DNA of 64,000 nucleotides from positions 124,001-188,000 of the forward strand of contig NZ_JARGET010000038.1 in assembly GCF_029210485.1 (NCBI RefSeq), in the 5' to 3' direction. The stretch is from Hoeflea sp. YIM 152468. GTDB taxonomy: Bacteria; Pseudomonadota; Alphaproteobacteria; Rhizobiales; Rhizobiaceae. A program made the position numbers and the translations under genes. The notes under the pieces are model-generated. The model was not told where the DNA came from. It searched no databases and saw only the letters and a program-made list of their open reading frames with translations. This document shows positions 27,929 through 40,329 of the stretch, one piece after another (position 1 is the first letter of the stretch; each line of letters starts with the position of its first letter).

Positions 27929-28480
27929 CTAACGCCACGGGATTGCAGCGGAATCCGGAACGCCGATTTCGAAGGTATTCAAAGTGTAGGCAACAAGCGT
28001 GTAATACCCGATCAAACCGGTCAGATCGATCAACCCCTTTGAGCCGAGATGCTGCTCGGCGCGAGCATAGATGTCATCTTCCACTCGACCATCATGCGCC
28101 ATTGACCTCGCGAAATCATGGACGGCACTGTCGGCCTCTTCGGCAAAGGTCGGCGCGTGGCCCGAACCGATTGCGCTCAGCACATCGTCCGAAAGGCCTT
28201 GTTTTTTCGCCAGCGGTGCGTGCGCATACCATTCGTAGTCCGCCTTCCAGCGCGCGGCGACCACGAGGATTGCCAACTCGCGCAAGCGCTCCGGCACGCT
28301 GCAGTCGTAGCGCACATACACGCCGAGCTGGTCGACAGGCGCCGCAAGGCCGGGATTGTTGATGAGCACCGTATGGGGTCCGCGGACCCCGCCCCGCGCG
28401 CCACCGGCGATCCTGTCGTACACGGCGCGCTGCTCCGCATCGAGACCTTCGGGTCCAGTGATCTTCTCTATTCTGCTCAT
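27929..28480 (-). CDS. Carboxymuconolactone decarboxylase family protein
   Basis: This 183-residue protein has an AhpD/CMD fold, with the core RLRELAILVVAARWKADYEWYAHAP carrying the conserved Glu, Trp and His. The CxxC pair of AhpD peroxidoreductases is absent, so a decarboxylase- or lactone-type role is more likely than thiol peroxidase activity. It ends before the TAXI receptor gene and overlaps the upstream hydrolase stop by four bases. In this setting it may process a ring-opened or lactone intermediate. The exact reaction is not known. Confidence 0.83.
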   Translation of the reverse strand: MSRIEKITGPEGLDAEQRAVYDRIAGGARGGVRGPHTVLINNPGLAAPVDQLGVYVRYDCSVPERLRELAILVVAARWKADYEWYAHAPLAKKQGLSDDVLSAIGSGHAPTFAEEADSAVHDFARSMAHDGRVEDDIYARAEQHLGSKGLIDLTGLIGYYTLVAYTLNTFEIGVPDSAAIPWR

Positions 28481-29250
28481 GTCTTATCTCCAAGAAAGCC
28501 AAGTATCGCTGCCGCCACCAGGTCAGGCTGTTCGACCGCGGAAATGTGGCCCGCGTTCTCTATCTCAACGAATTGCGAACCCGGCGTGGCATGATGCAAT
28601 TGCCGCATTGTTCCGGGCGGCGCGCCGACGTCCTCAGATCCGACCAGGAACAGCGTCGGCACTGTCATCGTCGGGAGATGTCTGGCGTAATCCAAGTCCT
28701 GAAGGGCGCGGGCGCAGCCCACATACCCGTCGGCGCTTGTCGCCGAAACCATGGCGCGCATCCGGTTCACGGATTCATCATTGCGTTTGAATTGCTCTGT
28801 AAACCAGCGGTCTACCGTTGGCCCGGCGAGGACGCCGACTCCATCAGCGGTAACACGCTCGATTCGATCGCTCCAGGACTTGCGGTAGGCGTCCGGTGCA
28901 TCGCCACGTGCATCGCAGATGACCAGCTTCTCGATCCGCTCCGCATGATGAAGGCCTAGCCCCATCCCTACCATTCCACCCATTGACAAGCCGACGAAGT
29001 TTGTCTTCTCGATGCTGAGGTCATCAAGAAGGTCAACGACATCCTGCGCGAGTTCGCTGAGCGTGTAGGAGTCGGATGGCGCCGGGGATTGCCCGTGGCC
29101 TCGGGCATCGTAGCGCAGCACCCGATAGCGGCTCTCAAGCTGCGGCACGACTGCGTCCCACATGCTCAGATCGGTTGCCAGTCCGTGGGCCAATGTGATC
29201 ACCGGCGCATTCGCTGCACCGGATATCTTGTAGTTCAATTGCGATTTCAT
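28477..29250 (-). CDS. Alpha/beta hydrolase (3-oxoadipate enol-lactonase / RutD-like)
   Basis: This 257-residue single-domain hydrolase has the oxyanion-hole HGLATDLSMWD, the nucleophile elbow GLSMGGMVG (Ser), the acid Asp in LVGSEDVGAPP, and the catalytic His in GHISAVEQP. It resembles PcaD and RutD. The start ATG at 29250 (MKSQLNYKISG) is 19 bases after the flavin-reductase stop; a longer frame overlaps that gene. Beside a flavin monooxygenase, a role in hydrolysing an oxidised ester, lactone or carbamate intermediate is likely but not proven. Confidence 0.85.
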   Translation of the reverse strand: MKSQLNYKISGAANAPVITLAHGLATDLSMWDAVVPQLESRYRVLRYDARGHGQSPAPSDSYTLSELAQDVVDLLDDLSIEKTNFVGLSMGGMVGMGLGLHHAERIEKLVICDARGDAPDAYRKSWSDRIERVTADGVGVLAGPTVDRWFTEQFKRNDESVNRMRAMVSATSADGYVGCARALQDLDYARHLPTMTVPTLFLVGSEDVGAPPGTMRQLHHATPGSQFVEIENAGHISAVEQPDLVAAAILGFLGDKT

Positions 29251-29269
29251 GATTGCTCCCATGCACCAG

Positions 29270-29767
29270 TCAGGCAGCTCTGCGGCAGAACTGTCCATCG
29301 TGAAAAATCAAAGGATTTCCGGTTTCGAGGCTACAGTCGACAACCCTGCCGACGATGATGTCGTGATCCCCACCTGGATGAACCGCTTCAAGTTGGCAGG
29401 AAATATGCGCCAGGCTTCCCGGCAAGAGCGGAACGCCCCTATTGTCCTCGTCAAGATCGAGTTCGTCAAATCGGCTTGCTTCTTCACCGACAAACCGCAT
29501 GCAAAGATCCTGCTGGCTTTCGCCCAGCACATTCACTGCAAATACGCCACTTCGCTTGATCGCATCACCTGTTGCACTGCCCTTCTTCGGGCAGACAAGC
29601 AGCAGGCAGGGGTCGAGGGAGACCGATGCGAGTGAATTGACAGCCATTCCGAACCGAGTGCCGTCGACGGCGGTCGTAACCACAGCGACGCCGGTCGCGA
29701 AGTTTCCCATCACTTTGCGGAAGGTGACTGGATCGATTGGAGCTTGTGCAGCCTTCTCATGTAACAT
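29270..29767 (-). CDS. Flavin reductase (HpaC/RutF-like)
   Basis: This 165-residue FMN-binding split-barrel protein supplies reduced flavin to a partner monooxygenase. Family landmarks are VMGNFATGVAVVTT, GMAVNSLASVSLDPCLLLVC and GGDHDIIVGRVVDC. I chose the ATG at 29767 (MLHEKAAQAPIDP) because GAGGAG lies six bases upstream; a longer frame begins at 29815 and an in-frame ATG two codons before touches the SD. It heads the minus-strand run and is divergent from the LysR gene. The luciferase-like gene 1 kb away is its probable partner. Confidence 0.9.
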   Translation of the reverse strand: MLHEKAAQAPIDPVTFRKVMGNFATGVAVVTTAVDGTRFGMAVNSLASVSLDPCLLLVCPKKGSATGDAIKRSGVFAVNVLGESQQDLCMRFVGEEASRFDELDLDEDNRGVPLLPGSLAHISCQLEAVHPGGDHDIIVGRVVDCSLETGNPLIFHDGQFCRRAA

Positions 29768-29872
29768 CCGCATCTCCTCTGTTGTTGGCCTGTATCTATT
29801 TTCCGGCTTGCCCATTGACTAGGTCTGAAATATGAAAATCTTTCTTTCTCTTTTGTCCGAAGTCGAGGTCCC

Positions 29873-30754
29873 ATGAACAAGTTCAATGCGATTCAGATTT
29901 TCGTCCGCGTCACCGAACATGGCGGCTTTACCGCCGCGGCCAAACGGCTCGGCATTTCCGTTTCGGCGGTCACCAAGGCTGTGTCCCGGCTTGAGAATGA
30001 GCTTGGCGCCCAGTTGTTCGCCCGCACCACACGGCAAATCCGCATTACCGATTACGGTCAGGAATTCTACGAGCGCTGTGTGCAAATTCTTGCAGAGTTG
30101 GAAGATGCGGAAACCGCCCTGCGCCACGGAGCCACGGCATCAAGAGGGCGCGTGCGGGTCGTGCTGCCCTTCTCGTTCGGGCGCGTGACCGTGATCCCCG
30201 AATTGCCACGTTTTATTGAACGCTATCCGCTGATCGAGCTGGAGATTGATTTCAGCGATGCCGCCGTCGACATGATTTCGGAGGGATATGATATCGCCGT
30301 GAGAACGGGAGAGATTTCGGACACCCGCCTCAACACCCGTGTGCTCACGCGCGGCCCGCAGGTGACAGTCGGCACACCTGAATATTTCGAGCAGTTCGGA
30401 AAGCCGGAAACACCCGAGGACCTGGTGAACCATCGCTGCATCATCGGCCGCTTCGGCTCGGAATGGTCGTTCCGGCGTCCAAATGGCGGTCGCTACGCCG
30501 TGCGGGTGCCGCGCAATTATGTCTTCAACAGCGGAGACGCCCTGCGCGAGGCGGCCGTCGCCGGTCTCGGAATCACGCAGGGAACTTGGTGGCTGCTGCG
30601 AAAAGACCTCGAATCTGGCGCGATTGTGTCGGTCCTCGACGACTATGCCGATCAGGGAATGCCGGTCTCGATCCTCTACACGGCAAACCTGTATGTGCCC
30701 AGGAAGGTTCGCGCCTTCCTGGACTTTCTCATCGAGATCACCAAAACGGATTAA
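29873..30754 (+). CDS. LysR family transcriptional regulator
   Basis: This 293-residue LysR-type regulator has the N-terminal winged helix (about 1-60, with GGFTAAAKRLGISVSAVTKAVSRLE) and a periplasmic-binding-like effector domain from about residue 90. It is divergent from the flavin-reductase operon with 105 bases between, the usual layout for a LysR protein controlling its neighbour. It converges on the luciferase-like gene with a four-base overlap at the 3' end. TTGACT at 29815-29820 might be part of its own -35, but the -10 is weak. The inducer is probably a substrate of the cluster. Confidence 0.92.
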   Translation: MNKFNAIQIFVRVTEHGGFTAAAKRLGISVSAVTKAVSRLENELGAQLFARTTRQIRITDYGQEFYERCVQILAELEDAETALRHGATASRGRVRVVLPFSFGRVTVIPELPRFIERYPLIELEIDFSDAAVDMISEGYDIAVRTGEISDTRLNTRVLTRGPQVTVGTPEYFEQFGKPETPEDLVNHRCIIGRFGSEWSFRRPNGGRYAVRVPRNYVFNSGDALREAAVAGLGITQGTWWLLRKDLESGAIVSVLDDYADQGMPVSILYTANLYVPRKVRAFLDFLIEITKTD

Positions 30755-31872
30755 CCGGATGCGCGCTTTGCGCCACCTTCGGCAAGCGCCGCGTTCACCC
30801 GCGGCATCACTTCCTCGGCCATCAGCTCCATCGAGCGTTTCGCCAAGGCCGGATCAACCCAGTCCATGCCGGCATAGACGATCTCGCCAAATTCGCCCAC
30901 TTCCTCATGGAGCGCCAGGATCTGGTCCACGACCGAGTTCACAGACCCGGTGATCATGAGATTGTCCATGATGTAATCGTAGGTGATCGAATCGTCTGCC
31001 TGATCCTTCTCCGACTTGAAGACAAAAAGACGCCCGCTTCGGATCAGCTTGCGATGCATCTGCTGATAGTAGAAACGATAGGGGCTGTTGGGGTTCTCAC
31101 GTCCATAATCGAGTGCCGTCTTGTCGTCATCTGAGACAAAGATGGTACGTGCGATGCGCCAGTCTGCCGGGTCCGCAGTCGCCCCGACCTCCTGTTTCCC
31201 CTGCACGTAGTTGGGCCAATGTGTTTTCACCCATTTGGGCAGCAGGAAGTTCGCCGACAGCGGATGGAAATCACGCTTGCCCATTTCTATAACGCCTTTT
31301 GAGAACGGCGCCAGCACTGTACCGACGATCTCAGGCCGCGGCTGCTGCATGGGCTTTGGAAGCTGGCCGACGCCGAGCTCCGGCGACATTGTGCGCGCGG
31401 TCGATACCTTGAAGCGGTTGTCCGGGAAATCAATGTTGTAGGGCGGTTCGCCTTCCCAGATCGCCAGGATGACATCAATTGCCTCCTGAAACATCTTGTT
31501 GCGATCTTCATCAAGGATCCCGAGAGCTTCCGCATCGGACGTCAACGCTCCTGGGCTGATACCGAAGATGAGTCTGCCATTGGAAAGATGGTCGAGCATG
31601 GCGGCATGAGATGCGATCAAGACCGGGTGGGATTGCGACAGGTTCGATGTTCCCGTCGCAAGTTTGATGTTCTTTGTCTCCGCAACAAGGGAACTCAGAA
31701 ACAGCATGCTGCTGGTGATGTTCTCGTGCACATCCGTCAGATGCTCACCGATAAATGCATCATGAAACCCCAGTTTGTCCGCGAGAATAACCGTCTCGCG
31801 ATCTTCTCGCAGTGTGTCTGCCCATACCCGATCTGCCGGGTGCATGGGCATTGTGAAATAACCTAGCTTCAT
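30751..31872 (-). CDS. Luciferase-like flavin-dependent monooxygenase
   Basis: This 373-residue TIM-barrel enzyme belongs to the bacterial-luciferase superfamily. It would use FMNH2 and oxygen to insert oxygen into a substrate. Landmarks are MKLGYFTMPMHPADR, IGEHLTDVHENITSS, LATGTSNLSQSHPV and GRLIFGISPGAL. The nearby flavin reductase would supply FMNH2. It is transcribed towards the LysR gene, whose stop overlaps its own by four bases. A Rut-like ring-opening role is attractive given the hydrolases and amidase, but the substrate is unknown; limonene- or alkanesulfonate-type enzymes also share the fold. Confidence 0.88.
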   Translation of the reverse strand: MKLGYFTMPMHPADRVWADTLREDRETVILADKLGFHDAFIGEHLTDVHENITSSMLFLSSLVAETKNIKLATGTSNLSQSHPVLIASHAAMLDHLSNGRLIFGISPGALTSDAEALGILDEDRNKMFQEAIDVILAIWEGEPPYNIDFPDNRFKVSTARTMSPELGVGQLPKPMQQPRPEIVGTVLAPFSKGVIEMGKRDFHPLSANFLLPKWVKTHWPNYVQGKQEVGATADPADWRIARTIFVSDDDKTALDYGRENPNSPYRFYYQQMHRKLIRSGRLFVFKSEKDQADDSITYDYIMDNLMITGSVNSVVDQILALHEEVGEFGEIVYAGMDWVDPALAKRSMELMAEEVMPRVNAALAEGGAKRASG

Positions 31873-32362
31873 AATCGATCTCCGCTTTGTCGTCGGGGGA
31901 GAGATACGTCACCGCTGATGTGGTTGAAATGTCCTGGAATCGAAATTCTATGTTTCCGGATATTCCGAAATCAACACCACGGGGCTCGGTCGTGCGGGCA
32001 CCTGCCCGGTTCATCGTGCAGGTGCGACGACCGCACAGCCATTCGCTGCCATCGTCTCGCAGCGCGGCGCCATCCAGCGGAGCTGCCTCAGTCTTGAGCA
32101 AGACAATCAAGCCGGAGCCCTGGACACAAAGGTTCTGAACCACGGGAAGGTTCGGGCCGGCAAACTGCTGTTCGGAATGCCCTGGGCCGATACCGCTCCT
32201 GTCGAGATGCCCGGCCGAGCGCCGGCATTGAGTGAGGAGACATTTCGCCGGCTCTTGACGCAACGCCGACCGCACCGCGTCCCCGCGCCTTTCGGCAGGC
32301 GTCGCGGCGCAAGATTTGGTCATCAGTGGACGCTTCAGCGACGAATAATTTCCTCCTGGGCT

Positions 32363-32416
32363 AGCGCGAATGCTCCTGAGAGGTTAGAAAGGCAGCGACA
32401 TATTGGCATCCAAGCC
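32363..32416 (+). promoter_or_regulatory. Candidate ANTAR-responsive leader hairpins
   Basis: Two short stems with six-base loops precede the terminator. The first is AGC-GCGAAT-GCT at 32363-32374. The second is GGC-ATCCAA-GCC at 32405-32416. The 3' arm of the second is also the 5' arm of the terminator, so the two structures exclude each other, as in AmiR-type antitermination. The loops match the published ANTAR preference (A at position 1, G at 4) only in part, and the stems are just three pairs long, so this is a candidate. Confidence 0.4.
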
Positions 32417-32457
32417 TCGGACTGATCGCAAATTGCGCATCGGTGCGAGGCTTTTTT
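32412..32457 (+). terminator. Intrinsic terminator in the amide-operon leader (attenuator)
   Basis: AAGCCTCG at 32412-32419 pairs exactly with CGAGGCTT at 32446-32453. The interior continues as a nearly complete stem closing on an AAATT loop. It is followed directly by a run of six T residues. It lies 13 bases before the first ATG of the AmiC-like gene, so it would stop transcription before the operon unless antiterminated. The AmiR-like protein encoded downstream is the obvious antiterminator. Confidence 0.85.
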
Positions 32458-32470
32458 GGTTTTGTGACCT

Positions 32471-33550
32471 ATGATGAAACGAAACATAGAGATCGGCCTT
32501 TTGCACTCACTGAGCGGCGACTACGTCGCTTTGTCCACGGTTGCCCGTGCAGGCATTCTGCGCGGGGTGGCCGAGGTCAACACCGACCCCGCGCTGGACG
32601 TCAGATTTTCGGTGGTGGAGCGCGACCCCGAAGGACGGCTGGATCGCTATGCGCCGTTGTGCCGGGACATGCTGCAACACGCCGGTGTCCGGCATATTTT
32701 CGGGTGCATCACCTCGTCGAGCCGCAAGGAAGCCATCCCCGAACTGGAGCGGTTTCACGGTGCCCTCTGGTATTCTGCCCCCTATGAAGGGTTCGAGGCC
32801 AACGAACATGTGGCCTATATGCATTCCTGCCCCAACCAGCATCTTCTGCCACTGCTGGACTTTGCAGTTCCCAGATTTGGCAACCGGGTCTGTCTGGTGG
32901 GATCGAACTATATCTGGGGATGGGAAATTGCCCAGATAGCGCGCGAGAAGATCAGCACAATGGCTGGCCAGATCCTCTCGGACCGCTATCTTCCCATTGG
33001 CGATACCGGGCTCGACCAGATTGTTGCCGAAATCCGGGCCCTGAAGCCCGACTTCATCATCAATTCGCTGATCGGCGAAAGCGCGTACAGCTTCCTTGCG
33101 CACCTGGCGGAGATGCGCGCCGAAGCGGGGAACGCAGAGATGCTGCCGGTCTTGTCCTGCAACTTCACGGAAGGTGAGATTCCTGCTGCTGGCGCTGCGG
33201 CTGAGGGAATGTATGCCGCCGGCCCGTTTTTCGAAGGCAGTGCCGGCGGGCATGGATCCATTGCCGAAATGTCAAGATTGGCAGTGCATGAACTGGCCGG
33301 CTACCTCAATGCCAATCCGGGCGCCGAGATGCTGCCCCTGACCGACCTGATCGCATTGGCAGCAAAACAAGGGCGCGCGCTGCGGCTCGACCGCGAAAAT
33401 CAGCATGCCAGCCAACCGGTGGTGATCGCGCAGCTCAATGGCGGGATATTTGAAGAAATCCTGCGCCTTCCGGAGCTTGCCGCCGATCCGTACTGGACCC
33501 GGCGCGACAGGTCATCGCTGCCCCGCTCCCATCTCAGGGTGGTATCATGA
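32471..33550 (+). CDS. amiC: AmiC-like amide-sensing regulator (periplasmic-binding-protein fold)
   Basis: This 359-residue cytoplasmic protein has the type I periplasmic-binding fold of AmiC/UrtA, beginning IEIGLLHSLSGDYVALSTVARAG. It lacks a signal peptide, which fits an intracellular ligand sensor. In Pseudomonas, AmiC binds amides and releases AmiR, allowing antitermination. Here its stop overlaps the start of the AmiR-like gene by four bases, the same pairing. A second ATG immediately after the first would remove one residue. The ligand is probably a small amide, given the formamidase in the operon. Confidence 0.88.
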   Translation: MMKRNIEIGLLHSLSGDYVALSTVARAGILRGVAEVNTDPALDVRFSVVERDPEGRLDRYAPLCRDMLQHAGVRHIFGCITSSSRKEAIPELERFHGALWYSAPYEGFEANEHVAYMHSCPNQHLLPLLDFAVPRFGNRVCLVGSNYIWGWEIAQIAREKISTMAGQILSDRYLPIGDTGLDQIVAEIRALKPDFIINSLIGESAYSFLAHLAEMRAEAGNAEMLPVLSCNFTEGEIPAAGAAAEGMYAAGPFFEGSAGGHGSIAEMSRLAVHELAGYLNANPGAEMLPLTDLIALAAKQGRALRLDRENQHASQPVVIAQLNGGIFEEILRLPELAADPYWTRRDRSSLPRSHLRVVS

Positions 33551-34158
33551 CGCGGATCCGCACCGACAATCTGGGCGAAGCCAAGGCGTTTGTGCTGCAC
33601 CGCCCGCATCCGTCCATGCAACCGCTCTTGCGGCAACTGCATGTGATCGGACTGGATGTGCACGAGGCCTGGCCGGAGCTCCCCGCTGAGGCGGTGATGG
33701 CGGATTTCGTGTTCTACGACGCAGACATGGCCCATGACGAGCAATTCCCCTGGAAGGCGGGCGCCTCGCCGATGCCGTTGATCGCCCTGATCGGCTCTGA
33801 AGCCCCGGGCCGGTTGCGATGGGCAATGACGATGGGGGCTCATGCCCAGTTGCTCAAGCCGCTCAGCGACAAGGGTGTGTATGCAGGTCTTCTGGTCGCG
33901 CGCAGCAATTTTGACCGCGCAAACGAGGCCGCAGCCCATATCACCGATCTTGAAGCGCGGCTTTCGGCCCGCCAGACAGTCGTGCAGGCAGTGATGATCT
34001 TTGTGCTTCGCGGCAAAAGCCAGGCCGAGGCTTACGAATTGCTGCGCCAGACGGCAATGGCCTGGCGCATGACCATTGAAGAGGCTGCCCACCGCCTGGT
34101 CACCAACCATTCAAGCGAAAAGGTGTCGGATGACAGCAAACGCGTCGATCTCCCTTGA
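33547..34158 (+). CDS. amiR: AmiR-like ANTAR-domain transcription antiterminator
   Basis: This 203-residue protein has an N-terminal pseudo-receiver domain without the phosphorylation site and a C-terminal ANTAR domain at about 130-190, with LEARLSARQTVVQAVMIF and GKSQAEAYELLRQTAMAW. The core A-x-A-Y-LR-A-type RNA-binding motif is clear. A coiled-coil helix precedes the ANTAR domain. It would bind hairpins in the leader RNA to prevent termination at 32412-32457. Its last 29 bases overlap the first permease gene. Confidence 0.9.
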   Translation: MTRIRTDNLGEAKAFVLHRPHPSMQPLLRQLHVIGLDVHEAWPELPAEAVMADFVFYDADMAHDEQFPWKAGASPMPLIALIGSEAPGRLRWAMTMGAHAQLLKPLSDKGVYAGLLVARSNFDRANEAAAHITDLEARLSARQTVVQAVMIFVLRGKSQAEAYELLRQTAMAWRMTIEEAAHRLVTNHSSEKVSDDSKRVDLP

Positions 34159-35026
34159 GCCGGCCACGGTCAGTGCGGATTCGGTTTGGCGGAAGCTGGC
34201 CCAGCGAAAGCTGGCCGTGCTTGGGCTCGTGATCATGCTCATCTGTATTCTTGGCGCGTCGCTTGCCCCCTGGATTACCCCCTTCGATCCGAGCGCGCAG
34301 CATTTTGACGGGCTGACGATCGAAGGGGCGCCGCTGCCGCCGGGCCCGGTCTATTGGCTTGGCACCGACCTTCTGGGGCGCGACCTGTTCTCGCGCCTGC
34401 TTTTCGGCGCCCAGACCTCGCTGATCATCGGGGTTGTGGCCAATGGGGTCTCGTTGCTCATCGGCACGCTTGTCGGGGTCACGGCGGGATATTTTCGCGG
34501 CGTCGTGGGCGCGGTGCTGATGCGCTTTACCGATCTCATGATGGCCTTTCCGGCACTGCTTCTGGCGATCTGTCTTGCGGCAATCTTTTCTCCCTCGCTG
34601 TGGATCGTGGCGATGGTGATTGCGCTGGTGAACTGGGTGCAGACGGCCCGGGTGATCTTCACGCAAACCTCGTCGCTGGTCGAGCGGGATTACATCGCCG
34701 CAGTCAAAACGCTGGGCGCGGGGCATAGACGCATTCTCTTTCGCCATATCCTGCCGCATCTGGTGCCGACCCTGATCGTCTGGGGCACGCTGGGCATTTC
34801 AACCACGGTTCTGCTGGAAGCAACGCTGTCGTTTCTCGGGGTCGGCGTGCAGCCGCCGACACCGTCCTGGGGCAACATCATTTTCGAGAACCAGACCTAC
34901 TTCCAGTCGGCGCCCTGGCTGGTTTTCATTCCGGGCGCAGCCATTCTGGCGCTGGCGCTGGGTTTCAACCTGGTCGGGGATGCCTTGCGCGACATTCTCG
35001 ATCCGACACAGCAGGGGCGTGACTGA
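34130..35026 (+). CDS. Peptide/amide-type ABC transporter permease (DppC-like)
   Basis: This 298-residue inner-membrane permease belongs to the DppC/OppC group, with an N-terminal helix and the ATPase-coupling EAA-type loop RDYIAAVKTLGAGHRRILFRHILPH. DppC-typical WLGTDLLGRDLFSRLLFGAQTSL is near residue 75. I chose the ATG at 34130 (MTANASISLEPATVSAD), which overlaps the amiR end; the longer frame adds residues read from amiR in another frame. The DppC gene precedes DppB here, the reverse of the common order. Confidence 0.9.
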   Translation: MTANASISLEPATVSADSVWRKLAQRKLAVLGLVIMLICILGASLAPWITPFDPSAQHFDGLTIEGAPLPPGPVYWLGTDLLGRDLFSRLLFGAQTSLIIGVVANGVSLLIGTLVGVTAGYFRGVVGAVLMRFTDLMMAFPALLLAICLAAIFSPSLWIVAMVIALVNWVQTARVIFTQTSSLVERDYIAAVKTLGAGHRRILFRHILPHLVPTLIVWGTLGISTTVLLEATLSFLGVGVQPPTPSWGNIIFENQTYFQSAPWLVFIPGAAILALALGFNLVGDALRDILDPTQQGRD

Positions 35027-35946
35027 TGCCAGCTTATATTCTGCGCCGCCTGATCCAGTCTGCCTTGATCCTGCTCGGCGTCTCCTTCATCACATTCGTG
35101 CTGCTGTATATCCTGCCCGCAGACCCGGTGCGCCAGATCGCCGGCCGCTCAGCCACGGCTGAAACGGTCGCCAGCATCCGCAGCCAGCTTGGGCTGGATA
35201 AGCCCTTCATCGTGCAATATGGCACCTATCTGTGGAACCTGCTGGGCGGCGACCTGGGGCGCTCCTATCTGCAAAAAACAGAAGTCGGCACGCTGCTGGT
35301 TTCGCGCCTGCCGGCCACGCTGCTGCTGATGGTCGCGGCCATTTTCTGCGAGCTGCTGATCGGGCTGACGCTCGGAATGATCGCAGCTTTGTATCGTGGA
35401 CGGCCGCTGGACAACGCGCTGATGCTGGGCAGCTTTGTCTCCGTCTCTGCGCCGCAATTCGTTGTCGCGCTGCTGCTGCTTTATGTGTTTGCGGTCAAAC
35501 TGGGCTGGTTCCCGATCGGTGGCTACGGCACTTTTGCACATCTGGTGCTGCCGGCGCTGACCTTGGGCATCCTCGGATCAGGCTGGTATTCCCGCATCAT
35601 GCGCTCGTCGATGCTGGACGTGCTGCGGGCCGATTTCATCCGCACTGCGCGCGCAAAAGGCCTCAATCGCACCCGCGTTATCCTGGCACACGCGTTGCCC
35701 AACGCCATTCTGCCGGTCATTGCCATGGTCGGCATCGATATCGGCATGTTCATGTCAGGCATTGTGGTGGTCGAAAGCGTCTTCGGCTGGCCAGGTATCG
35801 GCCAGTTGGCCTGGCAGGCGATCCAGCGCGTCGACATCCCGATCATCATGGGGGTCACGCTGGTCTCGGCGTGCGCCATCGTGATCGGCAACCTCTTGGC
35901 TGACCTTATCGCCCCCCTTATCGACCCGCGTATCCGACTACGCTGA
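35026..35946 (+). CDS. Peptide/amide-type ABC transporter permease (DppB-like)
   Basis: This 306-residue DppB/OppB-type permease starts MPAYILRRLIQSALILLGVSFITF and has the coupling loop DVLRADFIRTARAKGLNRTRVILAHALPNA. About six hydrophobic segments are visible. Its ATG shares one base with the stop of the DppC-like gene (TGATG), so translation is coupled. It forms the membrane channel with the preceding permease. Confidence 0.92.
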   Translation: MPAYILRRLIQSALILLGVSFITFVLLYILPADPVRQIAGRSATAETVASIRSQLGLDKPFIVQYGTYLWNLLGGDLGRSYLQKTEVGTLLVSRLPATLLLMVAAIFCELLIGLTLGMIAALYRGRPLDNALMLGSFVSVSAPQFVVALLLLYVFAVKLGWFPIGGYGTFAHLVLPALTLGILGSGWYSRIMRSSMLDVLRADFIRTARAKGLNRTRVILAHALPNAILPVIAMVGIDIGMFMSGIVVVESVFGWPGIGQLAWQAIQRVDIPIIMGVTLVSACAIVIGNLLADLIAPLIDPRIRLR

Positions 35947-35975
35947 CTTCAACTTATCCAATGGGAGAGAAAACG

Positions 35976-37586
35976 ATGAAAAAACTGCTCATGTCTACCG
36001 CGATTGCCGCCCTGATGGCGGTTCCAGCCTTTGCACAGGGGGAGGAGCCCAAACATGGCGGCAACATGATTGTCACCTACAAGGACGACGTCGCCACGCT
36101 TGACCCTGCTATCGGCTATGACTGGCAAAACTGGTCCATGATCAAGTCGGTGTTTGACGGGCTGATGGATTATGAGCCGGGCACCACTGTCCTGCGTCCG
36201 GGCCTGGCCGAAAGCTACACCCTGTCAGATGACGGGCTGACCTATACATTCAAGCTGCGTCCCGGCGTCAAGTTTCACAACGGCCGCGCGATGACTTCTG
36301 AGGACGTGGTCTATTCGATCAACCGGGTGGTCAACCCGGCGACCCAGTCACCTGGACAAGGCTTTTTCGGCATGATCGAAGGCTTTGATGCAGCGGCTGC
36401 GGGCGATGCGGATGGGCTTTCGGGCGTGACTGCGCCTGACGCCAACACTGTCGTCATCAACTTGTCGCGCCCCGATGCCACGTTCCTGCATATCATGGCG
36501 CTGAACTTCTCGTTCGTCGTCCCCAAGGAAGTGGTGGAAGCCGAAGGGGCCGATTTCGGCAAGAAGCCGGTGGGTACAGGTGCCTTCCAGCTCACCGAAT
36601 GGTCTTTGGGCCAGCGCCTGACGTTTGAGAAGAACCCTGATTACTGGATCTCCGGCGTGCCCTATCTCGACAGTTTCACCGTCGAGGTTGGCCAAGAGCC
36701 GATCGTGGCCCTGTTGCGCGTCCAGAACGGGGAAGTGGACCTTCCCGGTGACGGCATCCCGCCTGCAAAGTTCGTCGAGGTGATGAGTGATCCGGCGCAG
36801 GCAGCGCTTGTGGTCGAAGGTGGCCAGCTTCACACGGGCTATGTGACCATGAACGTCACCGCCGCCCCTTTCGACAAGGTCGAAGTGCGCCGTGCCGTCA
36901 ACATGGCGATCAACAAGGACCGGATCGTCCAGGTCATCAACGGTCGTGCGGTTCCGGCAACCCAGCCGCTGCCGCCCACCATGCCCGGTTACACCAAGGA
37001 CTACGCCGGTTATGCCTATGATCCCGAAGCTGCCAAAAAGCTTCTGGCCGACGCCGGCTATGCCGATGGATTTGAAACCGAGCTGTTCGTGATGAACACC
37101 GACCCCAACCCGCGGATCGCCCAGGCCATCCAGCAGGACCTCCAGGCGATCGGCATTGATGCCGCGATCAAATCCTTGGCGCAAGCCAACGTGATTGAGG
37201 CCGGCGGAGCCGGTACGGCGCCGATGATCTGGTCTGGCGGCATGGCCTGGATTGCCGATTTCCCCGATCCTGCCAACTTCTACGGGCCGATCCTGGGATG
37301 CGGCGGCGCAGTGGAAGGCGGCTGGAACTGGGCAAAATACTGCAACGAGGCGCTGGACACCAAAGCTGCAGACGCAGATTCCATCGTCGATCCGGCCAAG
37401 GGCGATGAGCGCCTGAAGATGTGGTCCGATATCTACATGGCGGTGATGGAAGACGCCCCATGGGCGCCGGTGTTCAACGAGCAGCGCTTCACCATGAAAT
37501 CGGCCCGCCTGGGCGGTGACGATGCGCTTTTTGTTGATCCCGTGTCGATCCCGGTCAACTACGACTACGTCTTCATCAAGGAGTAA
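35976..37586 (+). CDS. ABC transporter substrate-binding protein (family 5)
   Basis: This 536-residue periplasmic receptor has a signal peptide (MKKLLMSTAIAALMAVPAFA, cleaved before QGE) and the SBP-5 fold of DppA/OppA. Landmarks are AESYTLSDDGLTYTFKLRPGVKFHNG and VRRAVNMAINKDRIV. I chose the ATG at 35976 with GGGAGA nine bases upstream; an ATG five codons earlier is not preceded by an SD. It captures the substrate for the two permeases. Dipeptide-type receptors can carry non-peptide amides or oligopeptides; the specificity is not readable. Confidence 0.92.
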   Translation: MKKLLMSTAIAALMAVPAFAQGEEPKHGGNMIVTYKDDVATLDPAIGYDWQNWSMIKSVFDGLMDYEPGTTVLRPGLAESYTLSDDGLTYTFKLRPGVKFHNGRAMTSEDVVYSINRVVNPATQSPGQGFFGMIEGFDAAAAGDADGLSGVTAPDANTVVINLSRPDATFLHIMALNFSFVVPKEVVEAEGADFGKKPVGTGAFQLTEWSLGQRLTFEKNPDYWISGVPYLDSFTVEVGQEPIVALLRVQNGEVDLPGDGIPPAKFVEVMSDPAQAALVVEGGQLHTGYVTMNVTAAPFDKVEVRRAVNMAINKDRIVQVINGRAVPATQPLPPTMPGYTKDYAGYAYDPEAAKKLLADAGYADGFETELFVMNTDPNPRIAQAIQQDLQAIGIDAAIKSLAQANVIEAGGAGTAPMIWSGGMAWIADFPDPANFYGPILGCGGAVEGGWNWAKYCNEALDTKAADADSIVDPAKGDERLKMWSDIYMAVMEDAPWAPVFNEQRFTMKSARLGGDDALFVDPVSIPVNYDYVFIKE

Positions 37587-37594
37587 GGCGCGGC

Positions 37595-38554
37595 ATGTGC
37601 AAGCACTGTAACCATACCATCCACGCCCATCAGCATCATTTCGGCTGGGACAACAGCATTGCCCCTACCTTAACCGCTGCGCCGGGCGAGACGATCCTGT
37701 TCCAGTGCCTCGACAGTTCCGGGGGCCAGCTTGGCCCCCGCTCGACCGTCGAGGATGTGGCCAATCTGGATTTTGGCAAGATCAACCCGGTTTCCGGCCC
37801 CGTCTTCGTCGATGGAGCCAAGCCCGGCGATGTGCTGAAGGTGACCATTGAAGGCTTTACCCCGCAACTGCGTGACGGGGCGGGTTTCGGCTGGACCGCA
37901 ATCATTCCCGGCTTTGGGCTCCTGGCCGATCAGTTTGCCGAACCGGCACTGACGGTGTGGAAACTTGACGCCGATGCCAAGGAGCCGGCGCTGTTCGGCA
38001 AGAACGGCCGCGTGCCGTTGAAGCCGTTTGCGGGAACCATCGGCAATGCGCTGGCGGAACCGGGATTGCACTCAATCGTGCCTCCGCGCAGGGTGGGCGG
38101 CAATCTTGATATCCGCGATCTGGCGGCGGGCACCACGCTTTATCTGCCCGTCGAGGTGGAGGGCGCGCTGTTCAGCGTTGGCGATACGCATGCCGCGCAA
38201 GGCGATGGCGAAGTTTGCGGGACAGCGATCGAAAGTCCCTTCGATGCGATTCTGACCCTGGATCTGATCAAGGATCAGCCGCTGAAAACCCCGCGCTTTA
38301 CCACTCCAGGCCCCGTCACCCGGCATCTCGACGCCAAGGGCTATGAGGTCACGACCGGAATCGGCCCTGATCTCTGGGCAGCAGCAAAAGACGCCGTGGC
38401 AAACATGATCGATCTCTTGTGCGCGACACAGCAACTCTCGGCCGCCGACGCCTATATGTTGGTCTCCACCTGCGGCGATCTGCGGATTTCCGAGATCGTG
38501 GACATGCCCAATGTGGTCGTCAGCTTCTACTTCCCCAGAGTTGTGTTCGAATGA
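37595..38554 (+). CDS. Formamidase/acetamidase family amidohydrolase
   Basis: This 319-residue FmdA/AmdA-type enzyme hydrolyses short amides to the acid and ammonia. Family landmarks are STVEDVANLDFGKINPVSGPVFVDGAKPGD, RVGGNLDIRDLAAGTTLYLPV and FSVGDTHAAQGDGEVCGTAIE, given here in part only as GDTHAAQGDGEVCG. The N-terminal HAHQHHFGWDNS is typical for the family. It starts nine bases after the binding-protein gene, and its stop overlaps the ATPase gene by four bases. It is the probable catabolic step of the amide operon; urea or acrylamide-like substrates are possible. Confidence 0.9.
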   Translation: MCKHCNHTIHAHQHHFGWDNSIAPTLTAAPGETILFQCLDSSGGQLGPRSTVEDVANLDFGKINPVSGPVFVDGAKPGDVLKVTIEGFTPQLRDGAGFGWTAIIPGFGLLADQFAEPALTVWKLDADAKEPALFGKNGRVPLKPFAGTIGNALAEPGLHSIVPPRRVGGNLDIRDLAAGTTLYLPVEVEGALFSVGDTHAAQGDGEVCGTAIESPFDAILTLDLIKDQPLKTPRFTTPGPVTRHLDAKGYEVTTGIGPDLWAAAKDAVANMIDLLCATQQLSAADAYMLVSTCGDLRISEIVDMPNVVVSFYFPRVVFE

Positions 38555-40329
38555 CTGTAGCTGAACCGCTTTTGCCGGCACTGGATTCGGATCGGCAGGA
38601 CATTGTCCTGTCGGTCCGCAATCTTCATGTCTCGGCCCGGTCAGAAGAGGGACTGGTGCCGTTGGTTCAAGGCCTCTCCTTTGACCTCAGGCGTGGCGAG
38701 GTGCTGGCCATTGCCGGGGAAAGCGGTTCGGGCAAATCAATCACCTCGCTTGCCTGCATGGGGCTTCTGCCCCAGCCGGCCGTGCGGATCACCGAGGGCT
38801 CGATCAGGCTGGGCGAGACTGAACTGACCGATCTGCCGGAATCGCAGATGCGGGCACTGCGCGGCGCCCGCATTGCCATGATCTTTCAGGAACCGATGAC
38901 TGCGCTGAACCCGGTGATGAGTATCGGCCGCCAATTGATCGAGGCGATCCGCGCGCATGATCCGGTCTCCGTGAGCGATGCGCGGGCACGCGCGCTGGAA
39001 GCCGTCCGCGCCGTCCGTCTGTCTCAGCCCGAAAAGCGGCTTGAGCAATTTCCGCATGAACTTTCCGGCGGCATGCGCCAGCGGGTGATGATCGCCATGG
39101 CCATCGCCCTGCGTCCCGACGTGCTGATTGCCGATGAGCCGACAACCGCGCTGGATGTGACAGTGCAGCGAGAGGTGCTGGACCTGCTGCGCGACCTTCA
39201 GCGCGATCTGTCGACGTCGGTCATTCTGATCACCCACGATATGGGTGTTGTGGCTGAAATGGCCGACCGTGTGATCATCATGCGCCACGGCAGCACGGTT
39301 GAAAGCGCTTCAACGGTCGACTTGTTTGAAACACCGCGCGAAGACTACACACGTGACCTTCTGGCCGCGGTGCCGCGCATCGGCGGCGCCGCGGCCCGCG
39401 CCGCGCTCAAGAAACAAGAGAGCCTGGTCCGCATTGAAGATGTTTCGGTGCGCTTTCCTATCCGACAGGGTGTGCTTGGCCGGATCAAGGCTCAAGTCCA
39501 TGCGGTGGAGCATGTTTCGCTTGAGATCATCCGCGGCGAAACCCTTTCGCTTGTCGGGGAAAGCGGCTGTGGCAAATCCACCATTGCCAAAGCGCTGGTT
39601 GGACTGGTGCCCTACAGCGGCAATATAGAGATAAACGGCAAGAATCTGGTTCGTCTGAACGCTGCGGGCCGCAAGGCTCTGCGCCGTGATCTGCAGATCA
39701 TCTTTCAGGACCCGATGGCCGCGCTTGATGCGCGGATGACGGTTGGCGAGCTTATCCGCGAGCCGCTGGCCATCCACGACATCGGCACCGCCGAGGAGCA
39801 GCGCGCGCGCGTCTACCAGTTGCTCGAACGGGTGGACCTGTCGCCTGCCTACTACAACCGCTATCCGCACCAGTTTTCCGGTGGCCAGCGTCAACGGATT
39901 TGCATCGCCCGGGCGCTGGCGCTCGAGCCCCAGTTGATCGTCTGTGATGAAAGCGTGGCTGCGCTCGATGTCTCGATCCAGGCACGAATTCTGGACCTGC
40001 TGCGTGACCTGCAAAAGGAAATGGGTGTGACCTACCTCTTCATCAGCCACGACATGGCTGTGGTCGAGAACATTTCCGATCGCGTGGCGGTGATGTATCT
40101 GGGACAAATCGTCGAAATGGGAACGCGTGAGCAGGTGTTCGGTGATCCGCGCCACAGCTACACAAAACGGCTTCTCGCCGCCGTCCCGGTACCTGATCCG
40201 CGCAGCCCGCGCGCCGGCCTGCCGCGGCTGACCGGTGACGTTCCAAGCCCTGTCTGGCCGCTGGGCGCAGGCCCCGCGCGTCAGGCTCTGGTCGATGTCG
40301 GTGGCGGCCATATGGTCGCTCCGGATTAA
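38551..40329 (+). CDS. Fused two-domain ABC transporter ATPase (DppD-DppF-like)
   Basis: This 592-residue protein joins two peptide-transporter ATPases. The first (about 15-290) has Walker [13 protein letters not shown], signature LSGGMRQRV and Walker [13 protein letters not shown]. The second (about 305-575) has [16 protein letters not shown], signature FSGGQRQRI and [12 protein letters not shown]. Both are complete. In the second domain the Walker B segment reads CDESVAALD, where most ATPases have DEPT/VSALD, but the catalytic Glu is kept. It overlaps the formamidase gene by four bases. It energises the adjacent permeases. Confidence 0.93.

Follow-up and report, generated by a model that had tools for sequence, protein, structure and literature searches.

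A probable AmiR-controlled attenuator with a single, non-G4 hexaloop before an amiC-amiR amidase operon of Hoeflea sp. YIM 152468

This locus raises the question of how transcription could pass a strong terminator placed directly before an operon which encodes its own candidate antiterminator protein, and whether one small RNA hairpin would be enough for this. The window (the whole stretch of 64,000 nt analysed here) carries on its plus strand a gene for an AmiC-like ligand sensor (32471-33550; Peripla_BP_5, E 8.9e-65; Pseudomonas aeruginosa AmiC, 1pea, E 2.5e-32), which overlaps the start of amiR (33547-34158; AmiR_N, E 2.2e-11, and ANTAR, E 1e-8, both above the Pfam cut-off; solved AmiR structure 1qo0_D, E 5.1e-11). 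These matches confirm the AmiC sensor and AmiR-type ANTAR protein which had been recognised in an earlier reading of the sequence alone. The genes which would be regulated follow at 34133-40329 on the same strand and encode two oligopeptide-type permeases, an SBP_bac_5 binding protein, an FmdA_AmdA amidase and a fused ABC ATPase. There is one ANTAR match in the genome, amiR itself. Published ANTAR targets consist of two hexaloops with A at loop position 1 (A1) and G at loop position 4 (G4), plus a linker.

The leader contains, in order, an ACATA box (32398-32402, plus strand), the letters TT, a small hairpin GGC(ATCCAA)GCC which we call P2 (32405-32416, plus strand), the remainder of an intrinsic terminator and its T6 tail (32452-32457). 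The terminator occupies 32412-32457 on the plus strand, with the left arm AAGCCTCG beginning at 32412 and the right arm CGAGGC ending at 32451, and 13 nt separate the T6 tail from the amiC ATG at 32471. The segment 32412-32451 folds at -25.0 kcal/mol against a shuffle mean of -10.4 kcal/mol (z -6.45), a value equalled by 0 of 200 shuffles, which bears out the sequence-only reading of a strong stem with a T6 tail 13 bases before an amiC-like ATG. A stem with a T tail at 32433-32448 is also listed by the terminator scan. P2 has a 3-bp stem and a 6-nt loop, and its GCC (32414-32416) is common to the hairpin and the terminator arm; because this GCC opens the terminator arm, P2 and the terminator are mutually exclusive, and P2 is the proposed antiterminator and AmiR target. 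By itself P2 is weak (-2.8 kcal/mol, with 46 of 200 shuffles as good) and in one sequence alone would be unremarkable; its weight is its conservation.

Searches with AmiR gave 77 loci in addition to the window, each with an amiC match, after removal of L051 (a contig without an amiC match) and of L001 and L002, which are the window itself. No terminator was found in L026, which was left out of the blind count of 77 leaders. With terminators placed blind to P2, a hairpin of 3 bp and 6 nt was present on the terminator arm in 60 of the 77 leaders (window included), and 57 of the 60 had A at loop position 1, as does P2 of the window. When the 60 nt upstream were shuffled 200 times for each of 74 leaders, an arm hairpin appeared in 15% and one with A1 in 3.8%, and among 111 terminator-like arms elsewhere in 15 loci only two had such a hairpin, neither with A1. 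Many of the 17 leaders missed in the blind count were cases where the script picked another terminator; P2 could be placed by pattern or by eye in 77 of 78 leaders, a selected count. In this selected set 73 of the 77 rows were found by a pattern requiring A1 and four by eye (L009, L016, L063, L077), and the occurrence of A1 in 75 of 77 is not independent evidence, as the blind count is. Compensated P2 stems were found in L018 (AGC/GCT) and L080 (GCC/GGC) in alignment A2, which draws 46 rows, chosen with P2, from the 59 leaders that do not belong to the one-hairpin group described below; in L080 the P2 arm and the terminator arm change together. The sharing of GCC between a hexaloop hairpin and the terminator arm, as first noticed in the window, was thus upheld, and a hexaloop hairpin on this arm is conserved in 60 of 77 leaders. 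An overlap with the terminator arm, which marks the second hairpin of classical dual-hexaloop ANTAR targets, is seen for P2 in the window and in its relatives.

The relatives fall into two forms. Among the 59 leaders that do not belong to the one-hairpin group, 55 have an upstream hairpin with a score of at least 6. It comes after a box, in many cases A[AC]ATA, and is separated from P2 by 1-4 nt (2 nt in 34 leaders, 3 in 9, 4 in 10 and 1 in 2). Of the remaining four, L014, L022 and L023 were unclear, and in L015 such a hairpin was recognised by eye, its loop of 9 nt being beyond the tested range. Its loops measure 4 nt in 5 leaders, 5 in 15, 6 in 6, 7 in 22 and 8 in 7, and none of the six 6-nt loops starts with A, so that this upstream hairpin is not a classical A1/G4 hexaloop. 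Stem variants with pairing intact include CCGGC/GCCGG, GCGGC/GCCGC, CGGA/TCCG, CTGG/CCAG and GACCG/CGGTC, among others. In alignment A2 78.9% of the upstream-hairpin cells pair, and the covariation score of the upstream hairpin together with P2 beats all 500 shuffles. Sliding the partners of both hairpins by one position lowered this score only from 0.142 to 0.128 and gave more pairs changed on both sides (6 vs 5), but the paired cells fell from 86.9% to 54.5%; the near-equal score probably arises because MAFFT places the upstream hairpin one column off in several rows of A2 as used here.

In the window and 17 relatives (18 leaders) no hairpin of score 6 ends within 9 nt of P2, and when about 82 nt up to and including P2 were folded to an unguided consensus for 13 of these one-hairpin members, no pair besides P2 emerged. 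Alignments A1 and A3 hold 16 and 13 of the 18 leaders, respectively. Two hairpins each with a hexaloop, as in the classical dual-hexaloop target, are found neither in the window nor in the 17 relatives. All 18 one-hairpin AmiRs lie in a clade of 20 (support 80/87), which also holds L003 and L042, whose leaders carry the upstream hairpin; the tree would therefore allow a single loss together with a single regain, or as many as three losses. The sequence AAATA-CC-GGC in L034 and L035 resembles a two-hairpin leader minus the stretch between both GGC repeats, and the first hairpin may have been lost when a deletion joined its GGC repeat to that of P2, with the AAATA-CC-GGC spacing kept in some leaders. 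A separate observation from alignment A1 is that the inner part of the terminator stem (GATCGC ... GCG-ATCGG; 32418-32446 in the window) shows more sequence conservation among one-hairpin leaders than would seem necessary for a terminator.

Of the 59 leaders with no place in the one-hairpin group, 45 have TTGAC 33-40 nt upstream of the box, mostly at 35 nt (shuffles 0.8%), a spacing which indicates that transcription starts at the box in these relatives. Among one-hairpin leaders A[AC]ATA is found 2-4 nt before P2 in 13 of 18, and by analogy the window transcript probably starts at ACATA (32398), which would probably make P2 its first structure. A possible -10 box, TAGAAA (32385-32390, plus strand), lies 7 nt before ACATA; it was placed by eye and by analogy with relatives, is weak, and is accompanied by no TTGAC -35 element. 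The rarity of TTGAC at its usual place in the one-hairpin clade (2 of 18) leaves room for a longer RNA. GCTTCC-like letters replace TTGAC about 40 nt before the AAATA box in L048, L049, L039, L038, L033 and L034, which suggests a changed promoter type in the one-hairpin clade.

A covariance model, R1, was trained on 46 leaders outside the window's one-hairpin group. Searched against the window's own genome it placed the window leader (32398-32456) best, at 27.6 bits and E 6.3e-8, and the next match at E 0.041, E-values which are rough owing to a short calibration. R1 recovered all 18 one-hairpin leaders at E 5.7e-6 or better and found the leader in 29 of 32 sources outside its training set (missing L016, L022 and L026). 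Across 199 genomes of the family it gave matches at E 0.01 in 108, with a close AmiR in 46 of the 199, in a search whose stricter filters missed the window itself. Ten further matches were inspected, of which one (L109) was a clear second target, one (L114) lay in a paralogous AmiC/AmiR locus and eight were chance-like. L109 (G471:C1:757801-757884) is a second two-hairpin copy with TTGAC, ACATA, both hairpins and a terminator; it precedes an ABC transporter operon, amiC and amiR are absent from the fetched stretch, and amiR of this genome lies 3.4 Mb along the contig. We regard it as a candidate trans target, and an unlinked copy would fit a trans-acting protein.

AmiR-mediated antitermination best explains the leader because amiC and amiR follow it, amiR is the sole ANTAR match and the leader is the one strong R1 match in the genome. 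We therefore consider it likely, from comparison of sequences, that the leader is a transcription attenuator of the amiC-amiR-transporter-amidase operon which is overridden by AmiR at P2. Transcription would begin at ACATA (32398), and unbound RNA would fold into the terminator (32412-32457) so that transcripts stop. Binding of a ligand, presumably a small amide, by AmiC would release AmiR, whose ANTAR domain would grip the P2 hexaloop (32405-32416) on its exit from polymerase; with GCC held in P2 the terminator would be blocked and transcription would continue. In this scheme we infer the start site, the binding of AmiR to P2, the control by ligand and the sufficiency of one hairpin. Gene order, the conservation of P2 on the terminator and the presence of one strong target and one ANTAR gene in the genome give good support to the ligand-controlled antitermination originally proposed for the locus, in which AmiR binding and ligand control keep the standing of predictions.

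Several features count against this mechanism, among them its difference from the EutV system of Enterococcus faecalis. There, induction was abolished when the first hairpin (P1) was deleted and was reduced by a change of A1 or G4 in either loop; a linker of 5-12 nt was needed in vivo, and induction fell drastically when the linker measured 3 or 14 nt (PMC3369931). The window leader has neither P1 nor G4. In the structural work on EutV, G4 stacks on Tyr164 and contacts Lys149, which is V in the AmiR of the window, and the minimal binding motif was redefined as one hexaloop, with a call for studies of single-hexaloop sites (PMC8934654). The V at residue 149, the weakness of P2 when alone (-2.8 kcal/mol) and the scarcity of TTGAC likewise weigh against the mechanism. 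The systems are alike in that a P2 hexaloop (AGC AANGRR GCU type in EutV) with A1 lies on the 5' terminator arm in an exclusive fold. The upstream hairpin of the two-hairpin relatives is set 1-4 nt from P2, outside the 5-12 nt of EutV, and 53 of the 55 linkers are inside the 2-25 nt accepted for actinobacterial ANTAR targets (PMC8164766); the window has no first hairpin.

G4 is rare in this set. Loop position 4 was C in 43, T in 18, A in 11 and G in 5 of the 77 P2 loops, with C in the window, and the five G4 leaders (L016, L021, L022, L023, L079) belong to one distant AmiR clade. Residue 149 was Lys in none of 78 AmiRs and V in 68. Position 164 was Y in 56 and F in 12 of the 78, R142 is kept in 78, R168 in 75 and M172 in 75, and the AmiR of the window keeps Tyr164, Arg168, Met172 and Arg142. 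A strict co-variation of loop position 4 with residue 149 was rejected, as the AmiRs of the five G4 leaders also have V at 149. The idea that G4 loss is a hallmark of this AmiR family alone was weakened by two outgroup leaders: a scan requiring A1 found, in 2 of 10 outgroup stretches, a P2-like hairpin on a terminator before what we take, from its N-terminus, to be an amidase gene (L149, AACAAG; L153, AAAAAA), and gave no P2-like hairpin in the other eight. The G4 rule may thus be looser for AmiR-type proteins generally.

Other readings of the leader have to be weighed against AmiR antitermination at a single hairpin. The sequence-only reading had placed a second hexaloop hairpin in the leader, 30 bases upstream, and a standard dual-hexaloop ANTAR target would have AGC(GCGAAT)GCT (32363-32374) as its first hairpin. 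The letters are present, and L047, the nearest relative, is by eye the only one of 13 rows which can form the same inverted repeat. Yet the repeat folds no better than its shuffles, 169 of 200 of which are as good (z +0.84), and both A1 and G4 are missing from its loop. It lies 30 nt from P2, and EutV tolerates no 14-nt linker (PMC3369931). The consensus structure of 13 close relatives, obtained without guidance, has P2 alone, and if the promoter is spaced as in the relatives, the repeat would sit at about -35 to -24, where the promoter is in those leaders. We conclude that the upstream hexaloop is not conserved and is probably upstream of the transcription start, and a dual-hexaloop target built on it appears highly improbable. 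Comparison of the leader across relatives, of the kind suggested as a check, favoured P2 and went against this hairpin. A different first hairpin, in a longer transcript from an unrecognised promoter and missed by our alignments, would fit with the lack of TTGAC at its usual place in 16 of the 18 one-hairpin leaders and with the conserved GCTTCC-like letters about 40 nt upstream in several of them; we hold it to be improbable, given that none of the 18 leaders has a score-6 hairpin ending within 9 nt of P2 and that the consensus fold of 13 rows, which covers 62-69 nt before P2, has P2 pairs only.

The terminator is strong alone and ANTAR proteins are able to act on distant targets, and it could be a plain upstream terminator or a constitutive attenuator untouched by AmiR, which would act elsewhere. 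We give this little credence, as it leaves unexplained why GGC-A is conserved upstream of the terminator arm and why this leader is the only strong R1 match in a genome with one ANTAR gene. A ligand-binding riboswitch or a leader-peptide attenuator would share the layout of leader and terminator before an uptake operon. Neither the window nor any of 20 related loci had an Rfam match at the gathering score, and at E up to 5 over 32200-32600 there were three chance-level matches, none over the element. A start at 32398 would also leave 14 nt before the terminator stem, too little to accommodate an aptamer or a peptide, and this explanation is hardly credible.

Antitermination by AmiR is likely, and it is probable that one hairpin suffices. 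We lean, by a modest degree, to the further view that the alphaproteobacterial clade of AmiR attenuators to which the window belongs lost the first hairpin and works by a single A1, non-G4 hexaloop which comes first in the transcript. The suggestion that the locus holds a variant RNA target stands, for another reason than the one given, since the upstream hexaloop is not conserved and probably untranscribed; the real variance is one hairpin instead of two in the clade and a loop with A1 but without G4. We regard the leader as a known kind of element, an AmiR-type attenuator, in a new form with a single, non-G4 hexaloop, probably at the transcript start.

Among the closest known systems is AmiC/AmiR of P. 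aeruginosa, which likewise has an AmiC-type sensor, an AmiR-type pseudo-receiver with ANTAR domain, a leader terminator and an amidase operon. Its leader lies before amiE and reportedly has two hexaloops with A1 and G4 (PMC3369931), whereas that of the window precedes amiC and has one hairpin and no G4, and the window operon differs in its oligopeptide-type transporter and FmdA-type amidase. NasR and NasT, which act on nasF of Klebsiella and nasA of Paracoccus, also control a nitrogen operon by ANTAR antitermination at hairpins of the leader; they differ in the nitrate signal, the sensors and the use of two hairpins, namely a nasF P1 with A1 and G4 and the Paracoccus hairpins HI and HII (PMC5424462). 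No paper dealing with the leaders studied here was found by title or start of abstract in full-text searches that covered few subscription journals, and supplementary target tables may list some; the leaders do not match the A1/G4 dual-hexaloop description of published searches. If the proposed mechanism is true, one hexaloop is enough for natural ANTAR antitermination and recognition does not proceed via the G4-Lys149 contact, which touches the question of why ANTAR antitermination needs two hairpins though the dimer contacts one at a time. One-hairpin and two-hairpin leaders both occur naturally in this family, and their proteins are related (AmiR of the nearest two-hairpin forms is about 50-60% identical to that of the window), so that swaps could show what the first hairpin and G4 each contribute.

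An AmiR match at E 1e-30 was present in 3 of 18 genomes of the genus (its own included) and 46 of 199 of the family, and the same operon order is annotated in eight plasmid loci (L039-L046; L038 is without annotation). This patchy presence together with the occurrence on plasmids fits horizontal spread of the system. L114 (G389:C24:52213-52272) is a terminator with the hexaloop GGC(ATCAGG)GCC, situated between distant amiC and amiR homologues (32% and 27% identity) and a second gene for an AmiC-like binding protein, and appears to represent a paralogous ANTAR system with a similar leader. Adjoining the operon in the window, 28477-31872 encodes a luciferase-like monooxygenase, a flavin reductase, an alpha/beta hydrolase and a LysR regulator, which possibly form a pathway yielding the amide.
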